Source: a virus
Reading direction: 5' to 3' (one strand)
Length of the DNA: 31,499 nucleotides
IMG/VR virus record: IMGVR_UViG_3300037330_000025
Span: 1-31,499 of that record
The position numbers and the translations under genes are program-made. Positions 683 to 31,480 of the stretch are shown here, one piece after another (positions within the stretch are counted from its first letter, which is position 1; the number at the start of each line of letters is the position of its first letter). Under the pieces are notes generated by a model, which ran no database searches, was not told the DNA's origin, and saw only the letters and a list, made by a program, of their open reading frames with translations.

Positions 683-903
683 TACTTACATCTTAATTCA
701 TAACCTCTTGAATCCATTTCTCCGCTTCTCTTGCAGTCTTTTATAGTAGAAGTATTAAATCCACCTCCAACCTCAAAACTACCTCCAGCGGTATCAAATC
801 TAGCAGGATCTTTTACCCAATTACAATCACAAACCTCTAATGGCTCATCGCTTTCACAACTATTAAGAGCAAATAATGCTAATAATAATACTAATTTTTT
901 CAT
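682..903 (-). CDS. Small lipoprotein, 73 aa
   Basis: The N-terminus MKKLVLLLALFALNSC is a clear lipoprotein signal: two lysines, a hydrophobic core and the lipobox LNSC, with Cys16 as the lipidated residue. The mature part is only about 58 residues, with four further cysteines (CDC near the start, one in KDCKR, one at the C-terminus), so disulfides are possible outside the cytoplasm. The residues after Cys16 are SDEP, an acidic patch like the export signals that send Bacteroidetes lipoproteins outward. The ATG overlaps the stop of the DnaA-domain gene. Candidate roles are superinfection immunity, receptor blocking or an outer-membrane spanin. Nothing here decides between them. Confidence 0.75.
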   Translation of the reverse strand: MKKLVLLLALFALNSCESDEPLEVCDCNWVKDPARFDTAGGSFEVGGGFNTSTIKDCKRSGEMDSRGYELRCK

Positions 904-1295
904 AATTTATATGCTTTAAATTCTTTTTCTATCTCTAAATATAGGTTTTTATATGCTTCAGTTTTTAAAAATGAATAATAATTAATTGCCGAATGAATAA
1001 TTGTTGAATGGTCCCTATTGGTTTCTGATCCGATTTTTTCCAAGGTGTGACCGATGGTTCTTAAATTAAAATCAAACACACACCTAGCAGCGACATACTC
1101 CTCTTTTCTGTTATTGACCGAAACGTCATCGATCTTAAAATGCCTACAAACTATTTCATTAAGGATCCTAAAATCCTCATGAACATACCTTTTACTTTTA
1201 AGCGATTCCATCTTTAAAACGTCCTCTCTAAAGTTTTCAAATAAAGCATTTTGATCTTTCTTTAATTTTTTAAGTAATCTATTAATTTCATTCAT
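900..1295 (-). CDS. DnaA domain IV-like DNA-binding protein (no AAA+ domain)
   Basis: The C-terminal half (about residues 42-125) matches the DNA-binding domain of the bacterial initiator DnaA: an R..EYVAAR helix, then GHTLEKIG, then the signature NRDHSTIIHS (residues 93-102; compare GGRDHTTVLHA in DnaA). In DnaA the RDH(T/S)T residues read the 9-mer box TTATCCACA. At 131 residues the protein has no Walker motifs and no domain III, so it cannot act as an ATP-driven initiator. The N-terminal 40 residues are a charged helix. It lies 5 bases after the ART-like gene, in the operon of the promoter at 1728-1771, which carries a DnaA-box-like word. It could be an autoregulating repressor, a blocker of host DnaA, or a factor for the phage origin. 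The fold is fairly sure, the role is inferred. Confidence 0.85.
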   Translation of the reverse strand: MNEINRLLKKLKKDQNALFENFREDVLKMESLKSKRYVHEDFRILNEIVCRHFKIDDVSVNNRKEEYVAARCVFDFNLRTIGHTLEKIGSETNRDHSTIIHSAINYYSFLKTEAYKNLYLEIEKEFKAYKL

Positions 1296-1300
1296 GGTTA

Positions 1301-1705
1301 TTAAAATTCATTAATTAATTCTATAAGATCGTTTTCTGTTAAGTCACCTTCGTATTCTGTAGTATAATCTTCAAACTCATTACCACCTGTATTACCTTTT
1401 ATTATTTGCATATCGTCAAATTGTAATCCTTCCACAAAATGAACCCTACACTCAACGTCTTGACTATCGACTACTATCTCATATTCGTGTTCTCTGTTTT
1501 CTAGTGCGAATAGTGAATTATCAATGTCTACCATATCAATATCAACATCAATAGAAAGTACTACATAACCATCCTTTCCATGAAAACGATTAATATCATC
1601 AGCATGATTTTCTGCAAATATATCACAAAGTGTCCAAGAGTTACCTAGGTTGCTTGTGTCTATGTCCTCGCCTTCGTTTAGTAATATGCTTCTAAATAGT
1701 TTCAT
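1301..1705 (-). CDS. ADP-ribosyltransferase-like protein (tentative)
   Basis: I place the start at 1705 (MKLFRSILL), giving 134 aa. The frame is open to 1738, but the promoter -7 element at 1728-1735 lies inside that extension. The protein shows a possible R-S-E pattern of mono-ADP-ribosyltransferases in the right order: Arg5 after a first strand, Ser23-Trp24-Thr25 (GNSWT), and Glu74-Tyr75-Glu76 in a strand context (HEYEIVV), an ExE pair. It is strongly acidic. T4-type phages use small ARTs (Alt, ModA, ModB) early in infection on RNA polymerase and the translation apparatus, and this gene is the first of an early-promoter operon. An acidic DNA-mimic-like protein is an alternative. The family call is a hypothesis. 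Confidence 0.45.
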   Translation of the reverse strand: MKLFRSILLNEGEDIDTSNLGNSWTLCDIFAENHADDINRFHGKDGYVVLSIDVDIDMVDIDNSLFALENREHEYEIVVDSQDVECRVHFVEGLQFDDMQIIKGNTGGNEFEDYTTEYEGDLTENDLIELINEF

Positions 1706-1727
1706 AATGTTTGTTATAAGTACAATA

Positions 1728-1771
1728 CAAATATACAAACAACAAACGGATAAACGAATAAATATTTAAAC
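1728..1771 (-). promoter_or_regulatory. Promoter with DnaA-box-like operator (P1)
   Basis: Read on the minus strand: GTTTAAATA (1771-1763), 4 bases, TTCG (-33, 1758-1755), a 19-bp spacer beginning TTTATCCGTTT, then TATATTTG (-7, 1735-1728), which fits the Bacteroidetes TAnnTTTG consensus. The promoters at 8811, 9313 and 15776 have the same layout and spacing. It drives the ART-like, DnaA-domain and lipoprotein genes. The TTATCCG word lies where a bound protein would block RNA polymerase. Confidence 0.75.
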
Positions 1772-1984: not shown

Positions 1985-2201
1985 ACACTTTGAATTTAAG
2001 TTTCTTTAGTATTTCTATTTTTGCTATCTGTAAGGGGCTCAGTTTATCCCAGATTTCTTTTGACTCTATAAATATAACCTCGTTAGGTTTCAAGGCTATA
2101 AGGTCTGGCAAACCACTTGGTGTGATCTTAACTAGGTTAATCACAAAGTAACCTTTCGCTTTCCAATGCTTTATTAATTTTGTTTGCTGCTTAGATGCCA
2201 T
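1962..2201 (-). CDS. VRR-NUC domain nuclease
   Basis: At 79 residues the protein is little more than one VRR-NUC (virus-type replication-repair nuclease) domain of the PD-(D/E)XK fold. Visible motif residues are G30-L-P32-D33 (GLPDLIAL), E46-S-K48 in FIESKE, and Q58 in the LSPLQ helix. Phage copies of this length are thought to cut branched DNA or replication intermediates, and they are often encoded beside an SF2 helicase. Here that helicase (2815-4047) is one gene upstream, separated only by the HNH gene. The start overlaps the HNH stop by 11 bases. The family call is strong, the substrate is unknown. Confidence 0.88.
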   Translation of the reverse strand: MASKQQTKLIKHWKAKGYFVINLVKITPSGLPDLIALKPNEVIFIESKEIWDKLSPLQIAKIEILKKLKFKVYVNENEY

Positions 2202-2709
2202 TAAGTATTTGTTTTAATGCTTTTTGATATGATAAATGAGCTTTGTGTTCGCTATCAAATCTACCTAAATATTTAGACTTTCCTTTTATCATAATAATAC
2301 TTTGCCACTTGTTATAAAACTTATGCCAATGAACTCCAACATATTGAGATGAAAACCCTCTTTGATTTCTTGTACAGTTAAACCTATTCGTTGTTAATCT
2401 TAAATTGTTAGAACTATTGTTTTGTTTATTTTCATCAATATGATCGACTACCAATAAATATCCATTTGGTTTATGGTTTAAAAAACAAACGGCTACCAAA
2501 ACGTGTATTGATTTTGTTTTTCCTTTATTGTTTTTCCAAAGGCTAACACAACGATATCCGTGTTTACTTAAACAATACTTTAATGTTTTTTCTTTAACAT
2601 TCATAATATGATTAGATCTTTTCACTTTACGCTCTAAGCTTTTTACTTTACCTAAATTGCTAACTTGATATAATCCCTCATAACCTTTAATGTCTTTCCA
2701 AATTTCCAT
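2191..2709 (-). CDS. HNH homing endonuclease (NUMOD4-HNH-AP2-like)
   Basis: The 172-aa protein starts with a NUMOD4 motif (EIWKDIKGYEGLYQVSNLGKVKS). It continues with an HNH core (His69 in SIHVLVAVCFL, VVDHID with Asp89-His90, N97-N102 in QNNSSNNLRL) and ends in an AP2-like DNA-binding segment (YVGVHWHKFYNKWQSII, GRFDSEHKAH). This is the standard layout of free-standing phage homing endonucleases that spread by cutting alleles lacking them. It sits between the helicase and the VRR-NUC gene, a pair normally adjacent, so it is probably an insertion. It has its own leader (2710-2795) with a hairpin and U-run just before the ATG, so its expression may be separately controlled. Confidence 0.92.
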   Translation of the reverse strand: MEIWKDIKGYEGLYQVSNLGKVKSLERKVKRSNHIMNVKEKTLKYCLSKHGYRCVSLWKNNKGKTKSIHVLVAVCFLNHKPNGYLLVVDHIDENKQNNSSNNLRLTTNRFNCTRNQRGFSSQYVGVHWHKFYNKWQSIIMIKGKSKYLGRFDSEHKAHLSYQKALKQILNGI

Positions 2710-6414: not shown

Positions 6415-6429
6415 ATTTTTTTAACTAAA

Positions 6430-6512
6430 AAACCCCTTGCTTAAAATGGAGGTGTGGCTGTCCAAGGTAAGAAGGGGTTTACTAATAAATGTTTTGGGTT
6501 GCCACACCTTTG
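6430..6512 (-). promoter_or_regulatory. Structured leader of the primase-helicase operon
   Basis: Minus-strand order: A = AGGUGUGGC (6509-6501) close to the predicted 5' end; B = AAACCCCUU (6480-6472); A' = GCCACACCU (6458-6450); B' = AAGGGGUUU (6438-6430), which ends inside a U-run of six; then the ATG at 6414. B/B' is a perfect 9-bp stem. Its 33-base loop contains A', a perfect 9-bp complement of A. Because A precedes B and A' lies between B and B', both pairings together form a pseudoknot. The terminator at 6703-6738 already serves the upstream gene, so this hairpin is more likely regulatory than a plain operon end. Confidence 0.65.
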
Positions 6513-6517
6513 AACAA

Positions 6518-6548
6518 CAAATATAAACTATTTAATTAGATAAACAAC
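6518..6548 (-). promoter_or_regulatory. Promoter of the primase operon (P3)
   Basis: Minus strand: GTTG (-33, 6548-6545), a 19-bp spacer beginning TTTATCTAATT, then TATATTTG (-7, 6525-6518). The -7 fits the Bacteroidetes consensus. The spacer begins with the TTTATC(T/C) word found at the same place in the four other promoters, but the following bases differ (AATT instead of GTTT), and the upstream GTTTAARTA block is missing. Transcription would start about 6 bases downstream, just before the leader structure. Confidence 0.7.
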
Positions 6549-6600
6549 ATCCATTTTATATAAATTTATAATTAACTGTATAACAATACATTAAGTAATT

Positions 6601-6702
6601 TAGTGCGGATAAACGGATTTATTTAGGATTTATACCCCCCCTTAATGATTTATGAATTATTCTCTCAACGGGGGGTATAGGAAAGCGTATTAATCCGTTT
6701 AT
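6601..6702. other. Nested inverted repeats: candidate replication origin
   Basis: Two inverted repeats are nested. The outer one is ATAAACGGATT (6609-6619) with AATCCGTTTAT (6692-6702), 11 bp perfect. The inner one is TATACCCCCC (6631-6640) with GGGGGGTATA (6670-6679), 10 bp perfect, loop 29. On the minus strand the left arm reads TTTATCCGCA, one base from the DnaA box TTATCCACA. A very AT-rich stretch follows (6520-6600). The site lies between the SSB-like and primase genes in the largest gene-free interval (6415-6760), where an origin is expected. Confidence 0.5.
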
Positions 6703-6738
6703 AAAAAAACCCTTTTACATTTCTGCAAAGGGGTTTTT
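6703..6738 (-). terminator. Rho-independent terminator after the SSB-like gene
   Basis: The minus strand reads AAAAACCC-CTTT, a loop, then AAA-A-GGGTTTTTTT: an 8-bp outer stem, a mismatch, three more pairs and a run of T. It lies 23 bases past the SSB-like stop codon and ends the early operon before the candidate origin. Confidence 0.8.
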
Positions 6739-6760
6739 ACCTATTGGATAATTAATATAT

Positions 6761-7438
6761 TTAGAAAGCTAGATCTTCATCATCTTTTTGTTCTATCTCT
6801 ATATCTTTTGCCTTAGCTCTAATGACCTCAGAACCTTCAGCGGTATAATCTATCATATAATCTTGTAACTCTTCAGCAAACGGCATTAGCTTACTTCTAT
6901 CTTTGATTGCGGTTGACTTTTTGAATACTGGTATAGAATAATTTACTTTACCTTTTTTAAGCTCTTTAGCCTCGGATACCTCTATCCAATTCTTGTCAAA
7001 ATTACTATCACCAATATCATTAATAAAATCCGAATAACTACTCACACCGCTTCCCTTTAGACTTATATTAATGATCTCAAGGTCGTTGGTAACAGCGTAA
7101 ATACTTCTGGCATAATGGCCACCAGCGGCAACTATAGAAGGCTTATTGTCTTTGTAGAGTCCGCTAGCAATGTTACCGCCTTTAAAGCTTTTAACTTGGA
7201 TCTCTTCGTTACCAATTTGGAATACCTCATTAGAGTAAATACCGCTTTCGCTTGCATCATTCCATCCTTTGACTGTGTGATAATGTTCTAATATCACAAA
7301 TTTAAAGGGAAGTGTAACTAAGATGTTTTCTTTTTTGTCTTTGTCGTAATATCCGAAACACTTTTCTTCAGATTTCCAGCTTAAAAATTTCTTTGCTGGG
7401 TTTTTACTTTTTGTTTCTGCTCTTTCTAACCAACTCAT
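6761..7438 (-). CDS. Single-stranded DNA-binding protein-like
   Basis: A 225-aa protein that opens with MSWLERAETKSKNPAKKFLSWKSEEKCFGYYD, typical of phage SSB-like proteins I recall from Bacteroidetes. It then shows many short beta strands consistent with an OB fold (VTLPFKFVILEHYHTVKGW, LEIINISLKGSGVSSY). The C-terminus EQKDDEDLAF is an acidic tail ending in Phe, the hallmark by which SSBs and T7 gp2.5-type proteins recruit replication partners. It is the last gene of the early operon, followed by a terminator, the candidate origin and the primase, which fits a role in coating single strands at the fork. Confidence 0.72.
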   Translation of the reverse strand: MSWLERAETKSKNPAKKFLSWKSEEKCFGYYDKDKKENILVTLPFKFVILEHYHTVKGWNDASESGIYSNEVFQIGNEEIQVKSFKGGNIASGLYKDNKPSIVAAGGHYARSIYAVTNDLEIINISLKGSGVSSYSDFINDIGDSNFDKNWIEVSEAKELKKGKVNYSIPVFKKSTAIKDRSKLMPFAEELQDYMIDYTAEGSEVIRAKAKDIEIEQKDDEDLAF

Positions 7439-8088: not shown

Positions 8089-8325
8089 TTAAATTATTAC
8101 ATTTTTAGAATATTGTTCTGAATTTAAATCCACTAACTCCCAAACTTTTGACTTTTTATAATTAGTCATTTGCTTATCTCCTGTTCTCCATCCGTTAACC
8201 TGGGTAACAGTTGAACCGAGTACATAAATACAAAAGTGTGTATAAGTTAAGTGAGGTTGATTCACTTTAATCTTATAAGTTTCAAAGATCAAATCCACAT
8301 CTATAATTTCTTTTATCTTTTTCAT
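8089..8325 (-). CDS. Hypothetical protein with possible helix-turn-helix, 78 aa
   Basis: I do not recognise a named family. Residues about 35-60 (YVLGSTVTQVNGWRTGDKQMTNYKKSKV) resemble the recognition part of a Cro/C1-type helix-turn-helix, where a turn is followed by a W-R-x-G string as in phage regulators. The N-terminal part is a helix (IKEIIDVDLIFETYKIKV). It is small, basic and in the early operon, so a role as a transcription or replication regulator is possible. It is separated from the 81-aa gene by 7 bases. Confidence 0.6.
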   Translation of the reverse strand: MKKIKEIIDVDLIFETYKIKVNQPHLTYTHFCIYVLGSTVTQVNGWRTGDKQMTNYKKSKVWELVDLNSEQYSKNVII

Positions 8326-8810: not shown

Positions 8811-8854
8811 CAAATATATAATTAATAAACAGATAAATGAACACTTACTTAAAC
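8811..8854 (-). promoter_or_regulatory. Promoter with DnaA-box-like operator (P4)
   Basis: Minus strand: GTTTAAGTA (8854-8846), TTCA (-33, 8841-8838), a 19-bp spacer beginning TTTATCTGTTT, then TATATTTG (-7, 8818-8811). From the upstream block through the first transcribed bases (TAGAAACAAAAACAC) it is almost identical to the promoter at 9313-9356, so one is a recent copy of the other. Confidence 0.8.
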
Positions 8855-9290: not shown

Positions 9291-9312
9291 AATTTTGTGT
9301 TTTTGTTTCTAC

Positions 9313-9356
9313 AAATATATATTTAATAAACAGATAAATGAACACTTACTTAAACT
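9313..9356 (-). promoter_or_regulatory. Promoter with DnaA-box-like operator (P5)
   Basis: Minus strand: GTTTAAGTA (9356-9348), TTCA (-33, 9343-9340), a 19-bp spacer beginning TTTATCTGTTT, TATATTTG (-7, 9320-9313). It is the first promoter after the late-block terminator at 9380-9409 and opens the early region. Confidence 0.8.
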
Positions 9357-15775: not shown

Positions 15776-15819
15776 GTTTAAATAAGTGTTCATTTATCCG
15801 TTTGTTGGTTGTATATTTG
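15776..15819 (+). promoter_or_regulatory. Promoter with DnaA-box-like operator, plus-strand island (P6)
   Basis: Plus strand: GTTTAAATA (15776-15784), TTCA (-33, 15789-15792), a 19-bp spacer beginning TTTATCCGTTT (15793), TATATTTG (-7, 15812-15819). It has the same spacing as P1, P4 and P5, although it lies on the other strand. It drives the plus-strand island. Confidence 0.8.
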
Positions 15820-15841: not shown

Positions 15842-16090
15842 ATGAAAGCAATTAAATTAACACCCGAGCAATACAGGAGAAGTTTAAATTCTAAATCAGA
15901 TCATTTATGGGTTTATAATAAAAATATTAATTTTGGAAGTCCTCAGTTTTGTATTGTTTTAGATAACGATAAAAATATTTGTGATTTTGAATTAAGTAAA
16001 CTTTTTGGAGAAGGTCACTTTATGGATGGAAGTGTTTCTCCTAACGATAAGAGTCAAATGTTTTACGACGTTTTTTACATTAAAAAATAA
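15842..16090 (+). CDS. Hypothetical protein, 82 aa (plus-strand island, first gene)
   Basis: Unrecognised 82-residue protein, MKAIKLTPEQYRRSLNSKSDHLWVYN... The start is fixed by an A-rich leader (ACTAAAAACAAAAACC) 22 bases downstream of the promoter -7 element. Mixed alpha/beta, with a central strand pair (FCIVLDNDKNICDFEL), two histidines and two cysteines, and no membrane segment. As first gene behind the strongest-looking promoter of the island, it should be expressed early. Function unknown. Confidence 0.7.
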   Translation: MKAIKLTPEQYRRSLNSKSDHLWVYNKNINFGSPQFCIVLDNDKNICDFELSKLFGEGHFMDGSVSPNDKSQMFYDVFYIKK

Positions 16091-16129
16091 TACTAAACGG
16101 GGTGTAAAAACCCCTATAAAACAAAAACC

Positions 16130-16264
16130 ATGAAAGATTTAGCAAAAAAGATTTGTCAGTACAACGGTCAAAGCGGAACACCTAAGCAAGTAGAGAAATG
16201 TATCAAAACATTCTCAGGTAGTATTGAGCTTATGCAACAATTCGCAAAAAGTAGAATAAAATAA
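16130..16264 (+). CDS. Small basic hypothetical protein, 44 aa
   Basis: A 45-codon frame behind the repeated leader AAACAAAAACC. The product is basic and helical (MKDLAKKICQYNGQSGTPKQVEKC...MQQFAKSRIK), with two cysteines. A 5-bp GGGGT/ACCCC hairpin (16099-16114) lies just upstream of the leader. It lacks a T-run, so it is not a terminator and may instead affect mRNA stability or translation. No family recognised. Confidence 0.6.
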   Translation: MKDLAKKICQYNGQSGTPKQVEKCIKTFSGSIELMQQFAKSRIK

Positions 16265-16275
16265 ATATAAAATCT

Positions 16276-16425
16276 ATGGAAAATCAAATTCAAGAATTAT
16301 TAAAAAAAGAAAACTTTTCAGCTAAAGAGTTTGCTGAGTTTGTTTTTAAAATTATTATTGATAATTATGGTGAGCATAATTACGAAGATTTTAAGAAAGT
16401 AATAAATGATAAACTAAAATCATGA
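16276..16425 (+). CDS. Small acidic helical protein, 49 aa
   Basis: A 50-codon frame (MENQIQELLKKENFSAKEFAEFVFKIIIDNYGEHNYEDFKKVINDKLKS), highly helical and amphipathic. It starts 11 bases after the preceding stop, and its TGA overlaps the next ATG (ATGA), which supports translation. Function unknown. Confidence 0.6.
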   Translation: MENQIQELLKKENFSAKEFAEFVFKIIIDNYGEHNYEDFKKVINDKLKS

Positions 16426-16556
16426 ACGAAAAACAAAATATTAAAGAAATATTAAAAGATATTTTATCTAGTGCTAAAAATAAAGATTATGCACTTAATG
16501 AAAATAACAAAAAAACCTACCTGTTATATACAATGCTATATGATAGTTTAAAATAA
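16422..16556 (+). CDS. Small helical protein, 44 aa
   Basis: A 45-codon frame, MNEKQNIKEILKDILSSAKNKDYAL..., coupled to the upstream gene by ATGA. Its first 17 bases (ATGAACGAAAAACAAAA) are identical to the first 17 of the gene at 16703, so the two starts share an origin or a selected translation-initiation sequence. The remaining sequence is not similar. Function unknown. Confidence 0.55.
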   Translation: MNEKQNIKEILKDILSSAKNKDYALNENNKKTYLLYTMLYDSLK

Positions 16557-16560
16557 AACC

Positions 16561-16692
16561 ATGAAAAGACCAAATAAATAAGATTACAGACCTGAAAACA
16601 TTTACTCGGCAGAAGACTACATAGATTGGTTAGATAATTATAGTAAAGATTTAGAAAAATACATAGATTATATAACTAAGCAAATTCATTAA
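16561..16692 (+). pseudogene. Small ORF interrupted by one in-frame TAA (codon 7)
   Basis: An ATG behind the island leader (AAAACC) opens MKRPNK, then TAA (16579-16581), and the same frame continues for 36 sense codons (DYRPENIYSAEDYIDWLDNYSKDLEKYIDY...) to a TAA at 16690. The second part is acidic and aromatic with normal protein-like composition, so it looks like coding sequence. A single base change (for example AAA or GAA to TAA) would restore a 43-aa gene. It is probably a recent nonsense mutation, or a sequencing or population variant. Readthrough is less likely. Confidence 0.5.
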
Positions 16693-16702
16693 AACTAAAA
16701 CC

Positions 16703-17065
16703 ATGAACGAAAAACAAAAACTTATTAAAAGTCTTTTATTAAGAGGAGAGATGCTTGATGATATTAGGATAAAAGCTAAAACCTCTTGGAGAATGATTTA
16801 CAAAGTTATTGAGGAACACGGAATGCAAGAGTTTCGTCAAGAAGTAACAAGAAGGCACAAAAGCAAAAGTTCAAAGATGTTAAAAACTCCTAGAGTTCAT
16901 AAAGAAACAAGTATAAATAGACTAAACCGACAACTTTTAGGCAACCAAGTTAAGAAACAATCTGTGCTTGATGAGAAAGTATTTCAGTTAGGGTATAAAA
17001 ATTGCAGCGATTACATTTCACAAAATGGGGCAATAAGTTTTAGAAATAACATACTAGCAAACTAA
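16703..17065 (+). CDS. Probable helix-turn-helix DNA-binding protein, 120 aa
   Basis: The N-terminal 40 residues (KLIKSLLLRGEMLDDIRIKAKTSWRMIYKVIEEHGM) fit a helix-turn-helix of the resolvase/transposase-regulator type (helix, GEMLDDIRIKAKTS turn, recognition helix SWRMIYKVIEEHG). The middle is very basic (RRHKSKSSKMLKTPRVHKETSINRLNRQLL), and the C-terminus (FQLGYKNCSDYISQNGAISF) resembles the end of small phage regulators. The leader ACTAAAACC fixes the start. It is the last and largest gene of the island, ahead of a two-way terminator. It may be a regulator of early or late genes. Confidence 0.7.
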   Translation: MNEKQKLIKSLLLRGEMLDDIRIKAKTSWRMIYKVIEEHGMQEFRQEVTRRHKSKSSKMLKTPRVHKETSINRLNRQLLGNQVKKQSVLDEKVFQLGYKNCSDYISQNGAISFRNNILAN

Positions 17066-30898: not shown

Positions 30899-31480
30899 TT
30901 ATTTATATAAGTAGTTTAAAACGTTTCTAATTTTTGCTCTGGAATTTGATACCTTTTTTTGAGATACTTTATTCTCTATGGAGAACTGCTTCATAAATTG
31001 ACCTTGAACATAACATTTTAGAAATACCTCTATATCAAATTGGTTTATGTATTTACTATTCTCCAAAGTGTTAACAATAAATTTTAACTGGTAATCAATT
31101 AAGGCATCGTACTCAATTAATCTTTCCAAATCTTCTATCCCTTCATCTGGTAGTTCTAAGGTTACATCTAAATCTAAATTCTTATCTAAACTAACATTAC
31201 CAGTATCTTTCCATATTTGTCTCTTGTGTCTATCCTCTCTTGCGATAACATTTCTTACAGCGTTCTTAGAAGATACAAAATAAAAGTTATCTGTGAAGTT
31301 GCTTTCAATCCATTCGTTTCTTAAGTTGCGATTATGCCAACTTATCAGCAATTCACTTACCGCCTCTTCAGCTATAAATAAGACCTTACTACTTCCATGT
31401 CCACCTAGTAATTGTGAAGCTGATATTTGTGCATAGCCTTTTACTTGATTAACTAAAGCCGTAGTGATTTCTAATTGCAT
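30899..31480 (-). CDS. Sigma-70-like/HTH protein at the head of the late block
   Basis: A 193-aa protein that looks like a short, divergent sigma factor. The N-terminal part has helices resembling region 2 (AEEAVSELLISWHNRNLRNEW, FYFVSSKNAVRNVIAREDRHKRQ). The middle is acidic (LDKNLDLDVTLELPDEGIEDLERL). The C-terminal 60 residues end in a region-4-like helix-turn-helix (FLKCYVQGQFMKQFSIENKVSQKKVSNSRAKIRNVLNYLYK). In Bacteroidetes phages such genes often stand just before terminase. It could direct the host polymerase to late genes, but TerS-type DNA binding is an alternative. The start (ATG at 31480) lies in the terminal overlap and recurs at 108. Confidence 0.65.
   Translation of the reverse strand: MQLEITTALVNQVKGYAQISASQLLGGHGSSKVLFIAEEAVSELLISWHNRNLRNEWIESNFTDNFYFVSSKNAVRNVIAREDRHKRQIWKDTGNVSLDKNLDLDVTLELPDEGIEDLERLIEYDALIDYQLKFIVNTLENSKYINQFDIEVFLKCYVQGQFMKQFSIENKVSQKKVSNSRAKIRNVLNYLYK

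Follow-up and report, generated by a model that had tools for sequence, protein, structure and literature searches.

A DnaA-domain-IV-only protein and a promoter family with a conserved spacer element in an apparent Bacteroidota phage

The stretch of DNA analysed here (the window) is a virus record taken at its full length of 31,499 bases, with a 127-base direct repeat at both ends, indicating that the phage genome is circular or terminally repeated. Almost all of its genes run leftward. The host appears to belong to the Bacteroidota: the promoters of the window are of Bacteroidota form, and its primase carries a BT4734-like domain. No near relative of the window was found in the phage collection. 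The features on which the argument draws are as follows.

900–1295, minus strand: DnaA_C, a DnaA-domain-IV-only protein of 131 aa, identified by its PF08299 match, AlphaFold model, structure superposition and profile search
1301–1708, minus strand: first gene of the DnaA_C operon, 135 aa from an ATG, with no family match
1728–1758, minus strand: promoter of the DnaA_C operon, with a −33 element TTCG (1755–1758) and a −7 element TATATTTG (1728–1735)
6415–6760, no strand assigned: non-coding candidate origin between the 225-aa and primase genes, with nested inverted repeats and AATCCGTTTATCCGCACT; also contains a weak promoter
6525, minus strand: weaker fifth promoter site, TTG-TTTATCTAATTAAATAGTT-TATATTTG, with its −7 element at 6518–6525
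8811–8841, minus strand: box promoter TTCA-TTTATCTGTTTATT-N5-TATATTTG, preceding the early operon that runs from 8578 to 6761
9312–9342, minus strand: box promoter TTCA-TTTATCTGTTTATT-N5-TATATTTG, preceding 9290–9147
15789–15819, plus strand: box promoter TTCA-TTTATCCGTTTGTT-N5-TATATTTG, heading the rightward operon 15842–17065
16703–17065, plus strand: probable helix-turn-helix protein of 120 aa, with weak family matches
30899–31480, minus strand: protein of 193 aa, between the DnaA_C operon and the terminase genes

The rightward operon at 15842–17065 is short, has a box promoter of its own and lies within the leftward block of structural genes. The 225-aa protein (6761–7438, minus strand) is conserved throughout the phage group; Mycobacterium phages (Courthouse, Baka and others) encode relatives that are about 33% identical to it and are annotated as hypothetical. 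A gene resembling NUMOD4/HNH/AP2 homing endonucleases (2191–2709, minus strand) is situated between the helicase and VRR-NUC genes, and at the matching place the related record G003 carries a DNA methyltransferase-like gene. The 78-aa protein at 8089–8325 had looked by eye like an XRE-like repressor, an idea that was dropped after a profile search came back empty and the structure model, at pLDDT 42, proved unusable.

The protein encoded at 900–1295 is DnaA domain IV without the ATPase, as the first-pass annotation had claimed from the letters of the DNA. Its sole Pfam match was Bac_DnaA_C (PF08299; E 2.1e-10, 40.9 bits against a cut-off of 31.5), a family that 12 of 12 close homologues also matched at E ≤ 0.01, and the DnaA signature NRDHSTIIHS is present. 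Pfam gave no match to an AAA+ ATPase domain within the 131 aa, and the protein does not have the make-up of a DnaA replication initiator. Comparing a predicted structure with DnaA domain IV, the check that the annotation had named, gave the same answer: an AlphaFold model built on a 17-sequence alignment (pLDDT 91.7) consists of a single long helix (residues 2–34) followed by a DnaA-like DNA-binding fold (residues 40–131). When this second part was superposed with VIA-align on DNA-bound domain IV structures, it scored Z 14.6 against that of Mycobacterium tuberculosis (3pvp_A) and Z 14.1 against that of Escherichia coli (1j1v_A; 1.6 Å over 89 residues), with deviations of 1.6–1.7 Å over about 90 residues in the domain IV superpositions, whereas the best unrelated fold reached only Z 6.3. 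A profile search of solved structures matched only DnaA (six PDB sequences). E. coli DnaA residues R399, D433, H434, T435 and H439 are listed as base-contacting (PMC7561715); R63, D95, H96, T98 and H101 of DnaA_C correspond to E. coli R399, D433, H434, T436 and H439, and S97 takes the place of T435, a threonine-to-serine change. DnaA_C thus shares with chromosomal DnaA the domain IV fold and most of the base-contacting residues, but lacks the AAA+ domain and domain I and has the long N-terminal helix instead.

DnaA_C is the second gene of its operon and the 1301–1708 gene is the first, a point on which the first-pass annotation is corrected. The operon promoter reads, on the minus strand, TTCG-TTTATCCGTTTGTTGTTTG-TATATTTG. 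Its spacer begins with the 14-base TTTATCCGTTTGTT (1741–1754), and TTTATCCGTTT occupies 1744–1754, so that the box is indeed situated between −33 and −7, where it had been placed. The Bacteroidota promoter consensus is TAnnTTTG with an upstream TTTG, and spacer sequence is not part of it (PMC2483708). The window promoters have this −33/−7 form (TTTG ... TAnnTTTG), with an exact −7 element (TATATTTG); their −33 element is TTCG or TTCA, and TTTG is found instead in the related contigs L130 and L148–L153.

The evidence for a promoter family goes beyond what the first-pass annotation had. Four promoters in the window carry TTTATCYG at an identical offset from TANNTTTG (1735 minus, 8818 minus, 9319 minus and 15812 plus), the box always starting 19 bases ahead of the −7 element. 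In 1000 shuffles of the window the average number of such arrangements was 0.001 and the highest was one, compared with the four seen here. As a genome-wide site, TTTATCYG was rejected: six copies were found against 3.6 expected, and 12 of 100 shuffles reached six. Since the free octamer is not enriched, the signal is the fixed geometry.

We consider it about an even chance that these boxes are a shared early operator read by a phage-encoded protein, either the helix-turn-helix protein or DnaA_C. Early-type promoters of the kind that the host's Bacteroidota sigma factor recognises would then carry, directly downstream of each −33 element, a putative operator in the form of an asymmetric element of about 14 bp (TTTATCYRTTTRTT); a phage-encoded protein bound there, between −33 and −7, would block RNA polymerase, and the early operons would be switched off once enough of it had been made. 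The predicted regulon would include the DnaA_C operon and, separately in the window, that of the helix-turn-helix protein (16703–17065), so that the box heads the operons encoding both candidate regulators. We infer that the element is bound, and by one of these two, with repression as the most likely effect. The fixed offset of the four boxes argues for this reading, as does the position of the conserved bases in a spacer outside the known consensus.

Relatives of the window offer a further view of the element. DnaA_C as a direct query gave no match in the phage collection or among viral contigs, and relatives were found through the neighbouring 225-aa gene, the promoter pattern and a four-member profile; most of them are contig fragments, in which absent genes prove little. 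The 31-base promoter pattern matches ten viral stretches and has no exact match in the genome contigs of 84,980 prokaryote species, so it looks phage-specific, which also favours the shared operator. Across 20 promoters, a set partly chosen on the 14-bp block itself, the block is conserved, and two lineages differ in the five spacer bases after the block and in the flank upstream of it.

The same conservation could reflect promoter strength or recent duplication. On that account the spacer would only be part of a strong type of early promoter that duplication and exchange have spread, with no protein bound to it. Near-identical promoters do recur beside different genes, and in the relative G004 the homologue of the 1301–1708 gene sits elsewhere, apart from DnaA_C, and has brought a perfect box promoter of its own with it. 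Yet the block is unchanged between lineages that differ in both flanks and at spacer positions −5 to −1, and the −33 element (TTCA, TTCG or TTTG) varies more than the block does. We therefore regard a promoter type alone as a rather unlikely explanation, to be placed after the shared operator and ahead of the specific proposal that DnaA_C is the reader.

That proposal came from the first-pass annotation, in which DnaA_C uses its DnaA helix to bind TTTATCYG and in this way autoregulates the operon that encodes it, together with the other box promoters; it overlaps with the shared-operator reading. The pairing of gene and box, which was to be sought in related phages, recurs in this phage group, to judge from seven contigs besides the window: an exact 14/14 box heads an operon running through DnaA_C in six (L131, L148, L150, L151, L152 and L153; proteins 36–38% identical to that of the window), and in L149 the box matches at 12/14, against an expectation of about 0.45 promoters with a box of at least 10/14 per shuffled genome of 31.5 kb. 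The pairing is weaker, however, where the protein is most similar. In the closest homologues the box at the DnaA_C promoter is degraded (TTAATCAATTTATT, 11/14, in L141 and G004; TTTATTTGTTTATC, 10/14, in G003; a similar sequence in G039), although the proteins of L141, G004 and G003 are 60–73% identical to DnaA_C of the window, and G003 and G004 retain perfect boxes at other operons. L147 has DnaA_C, and a box promoter was not found there. More widely, DnaA_C was matched in 28 of the 50 records sharing the 225-aa gene, but the box occurs only in close relatives, leaving many with the protein and no box. Set against the annotation's refuting condition, relatives that have the gene but not the box, the outcome is mixed.

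The box is asymmetric, as would be expected for a monomeric DnaA-type reader, and the five matching residues (R63, D95, H96, T98 and H101) also speak for DnaA_C. The description of the site as DnaA-box-like did not hold, however. The element TTATCCGTT shares TTATCC with the DnaA box TTATNCACA but not its CACA half; this 3' half of the 9-mer is missing from the window promoters (TTATCCGTT/TTATCTGTT), and the relatives have TTATCCATT. Exact TTATCCACA does not occur in the window. The DnaA box TTATNCACA itself was rejected as an enriched site in the window, where it has two exact copies. If the DnaA helix read the box, its contact residues would be expected to stay constant, and among phages with an identical box the positions of R399/D433/H434 vary: R/D/H in the window, R/D/R in L131, L151, L152 and L153, N/H/H in L148 and N/D/H in L150. 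This argues against canonical DnaA readout, and other contacts may be used. Of the earlier claim that DnaA_C binds its own promoter, the domain, the position of the box and the pairing therefore stand, and against it are set the missing CACA half, the variable contacts, the degraded boxes, the box-less relatives and a second DNA-binding candidate. Binding of the box by DnaA_C is possible but not the version that we favour; we think it quite unlikely.

The second candidate is the protein at 16703–17065, for which no relative was found among solved structures. In the window it is encoded within its own box operon (15812, plus strand), separately from DnaA_C. Homologues lie in the box operons of L131 and L148–L153, adjoining DnaA_C or a few genes upstream of it, with further homologues downstream of a box promoter in both L130 and L132. 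Its link to the box is as good as that of DnaA_C. Whether position 8 of the box is G or A tracks the lineage with the helix-turn-helix gene rather than the type of DnaA_C: the window combines a DnaA_C of the G003/G004 type with a G-type box (TTATCCG) and the helix-turn-helix gene, whereas in G003 and G004 the box is of the A type (TTATCCA) and the sequenced parts contain no homologue of the 16703–17065 protein. This pattern favours a shared operator and tilts the choice of binder slightly towards the helix-turn-helix protein, a tilt that is small because the relatives are fragmentary; we would rank it slightly above DnaA_C. Against a shared operator, recognition residues are not fully constant where the box is identical, given that DnaA_C varies at three contacts and the helix-turn-helix protein has diverged in L150, and the helix-turn-helix assignment rests on weak matches.

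DnaA_C may instead be primarily a phage replication protein, binding the origin or assisting an initiator, with the box operon only timing its expression. In most relatives it adjoins the 225-aa gene, the primase and the helicase, and the candidate origin of the window contains TTATCCGCA, a match of 8/9 to TTATNCACA, besides inverted repeats (ATAAACGGATTTAT/ATTAATCCGTTTAT around TATACCCCCCCTT/AACGGGGGGTATA); the region is similar in G001 and G003. Between the 225-aa and primase genes, many relatives carry iterons that are specific to their lineage (L004 10297–10548; L013 814–1065; L011 3391–3465; L046 8207–8349; and others). Those of L014, L031, L034 and L035 have the form AATCGACA(C/T), which shares ATCNACA with, and so resembles part of, the DnaA box (L014 6561–6641; L034 5335–5405; L035 7843–7930; L031 1365–1452), and a related form, GTCGACAC, occurs in L027. 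In the AATCGACA(C/T) phages the 225-aa and primase genes enclose DnaA_C, which in several abuts the primase gene, and these phages possibly have a DnaA-domain-IV-only origin-binding system. As a general target of DnaA_C the iterons were tempting in this one lineage and were rejected: similar clusters occupy the same intergenic region in records in which DnaA_C was not detected (L011, L013, L043/L045), so they cannot simply be assigned to it. L011 and L024 share an iteron, and DnaA_C is found in L024 only. G004 has 14 copies of the iteron GTGTAACA, its primase and iterons having been exchanged together, yet its DnaA_C is nearly identical to that of G003 despite the swapped origin region. On balance a primary role in replication seems unlikely.

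A third possible role concerns the late genes. A sigma-like gene of 150 aa lies downstream of DnaA_C in five relatives (G003, G004, L131, L150 and L151), and in G003 and G004 it comes after DnaA_C and before the terminase genes. Its contig loci are as follows.

L080, 11479–11931: sigma-like 150-aa gene
L082, 7412–7861, minus strand: sigma-like 150-aa gene
L131, 6315–6764: sigma-like 150-aa gene
L150, 7524–7973: sigma-like 150-aa gene
L151, 3418–3867: sigma-like 150-aa gene

Its product matches phage sigma factors (phrog_1740, E 5.6e-6) and, weakly, the ECF factor SigW (E 0.0038). DnaA_C and this neighbour could thus form a pair turning on a terminase-first late operon, in the manner of GafY, which is DnaA-domain-IV-like, and the sigma-like GafZ, which jointly activate the main gene cluster of a gene transfer agent (GTA). 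The 193-aa protein of the window, however, has no detectable sigma homology, nor any to the 150-aa protein by hhalign; no element common to the regions ahead of the terminase genes was found; and the GafY site lies far upstream of the promoter rather than in the spacer. We consider such a pair very unlikely. Still less probable is the broader proposal that Bacteroidota phages hold a free-living counterpart of GafY/GafZ ahead of their terminase genes, in which the DnaA-like protein would also set the early regulon through a new spacer operator that is not a DnaA box.

Should the element prove to be an operator, it would define a compact early regulon in uncultured Bacteroidota phages, about whose gene control little is known, and would supply candidate promoter parts. 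If it is DnaA_C that reads the box, phages would have put DnaA domain IV to new use as a free-standing transcription regulator that recognises a different sequence, in parallel to GafA and GafY. Even if DnaA_C is not the reader, at least 28 of the 50 related virus records carry DnaA-domain-IV-only genes, most of them within the replication module and most without an explanation.

The annotation's statement that no phage switch of this kind had been described was too strong: the activators GafA and GafY act on their own operons (PMC6363796, PMC11150451), and neither the protein type nor the idea of a DnaA-like transcription switch is new. For a promoter family with a conserved spacer element, paired with a DnaA_C-type gene, we found no description in the literature. 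Annotated phage DnaA or Bac_DnaA_C genes are known from Olleya phage Harreka_1, Pelagibacter phages Greip and HTVC204P and Polaribacter phages P12002L/S. Like DnaA_C they are placed among early or recombination genes, and Harreka_1 and both pelagiphages have small ORFs that matched a DnaA_C query; they differ in being too distant for tblastn with the window protein, and no box promoter has been described for them. GafA of the Rhodobacter capsulatus RcGTA is a transcription activator with a DnaA-domain-IV-like DNA-binding domain (PMC6363796, PMC9638019), a type of domain that DnaA_C also has by Pfam and structure. It regulates transcription in a phage-derived element and binds and activates its own promoter (PMC6363796), a precedent for DnaA_C as reader of the box; it differs in being an activator of Alphaproteobacteria that is fused to a sigma-like C-terminal part, to which own-promoter binding maps, the N-terminal domain having shown only non-specific binding to the gafA promoter. 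GafY (= HdaB) of Caulobacter crescentus is an activator homologous to DnaA domain IV that had earlier been linked to replication (PMC9632790, PMC11150451). It resembles DnaA_C as a small domain IV homologue, with the sigma-like GafZ encoded alongside, and controls a phage-like gene cluster as well as its own operon. The GafY site, however, lies about 113–123 bp upstream of the start, where GafY activates with IHF, and in CcGTA it is the GafZ site, not that of GafY, that lies between −10 and −35; the box of the window, in contrast, sits within the promoter spacer, a position at which a bound protein would be expected to obstruct RNA polymerase.
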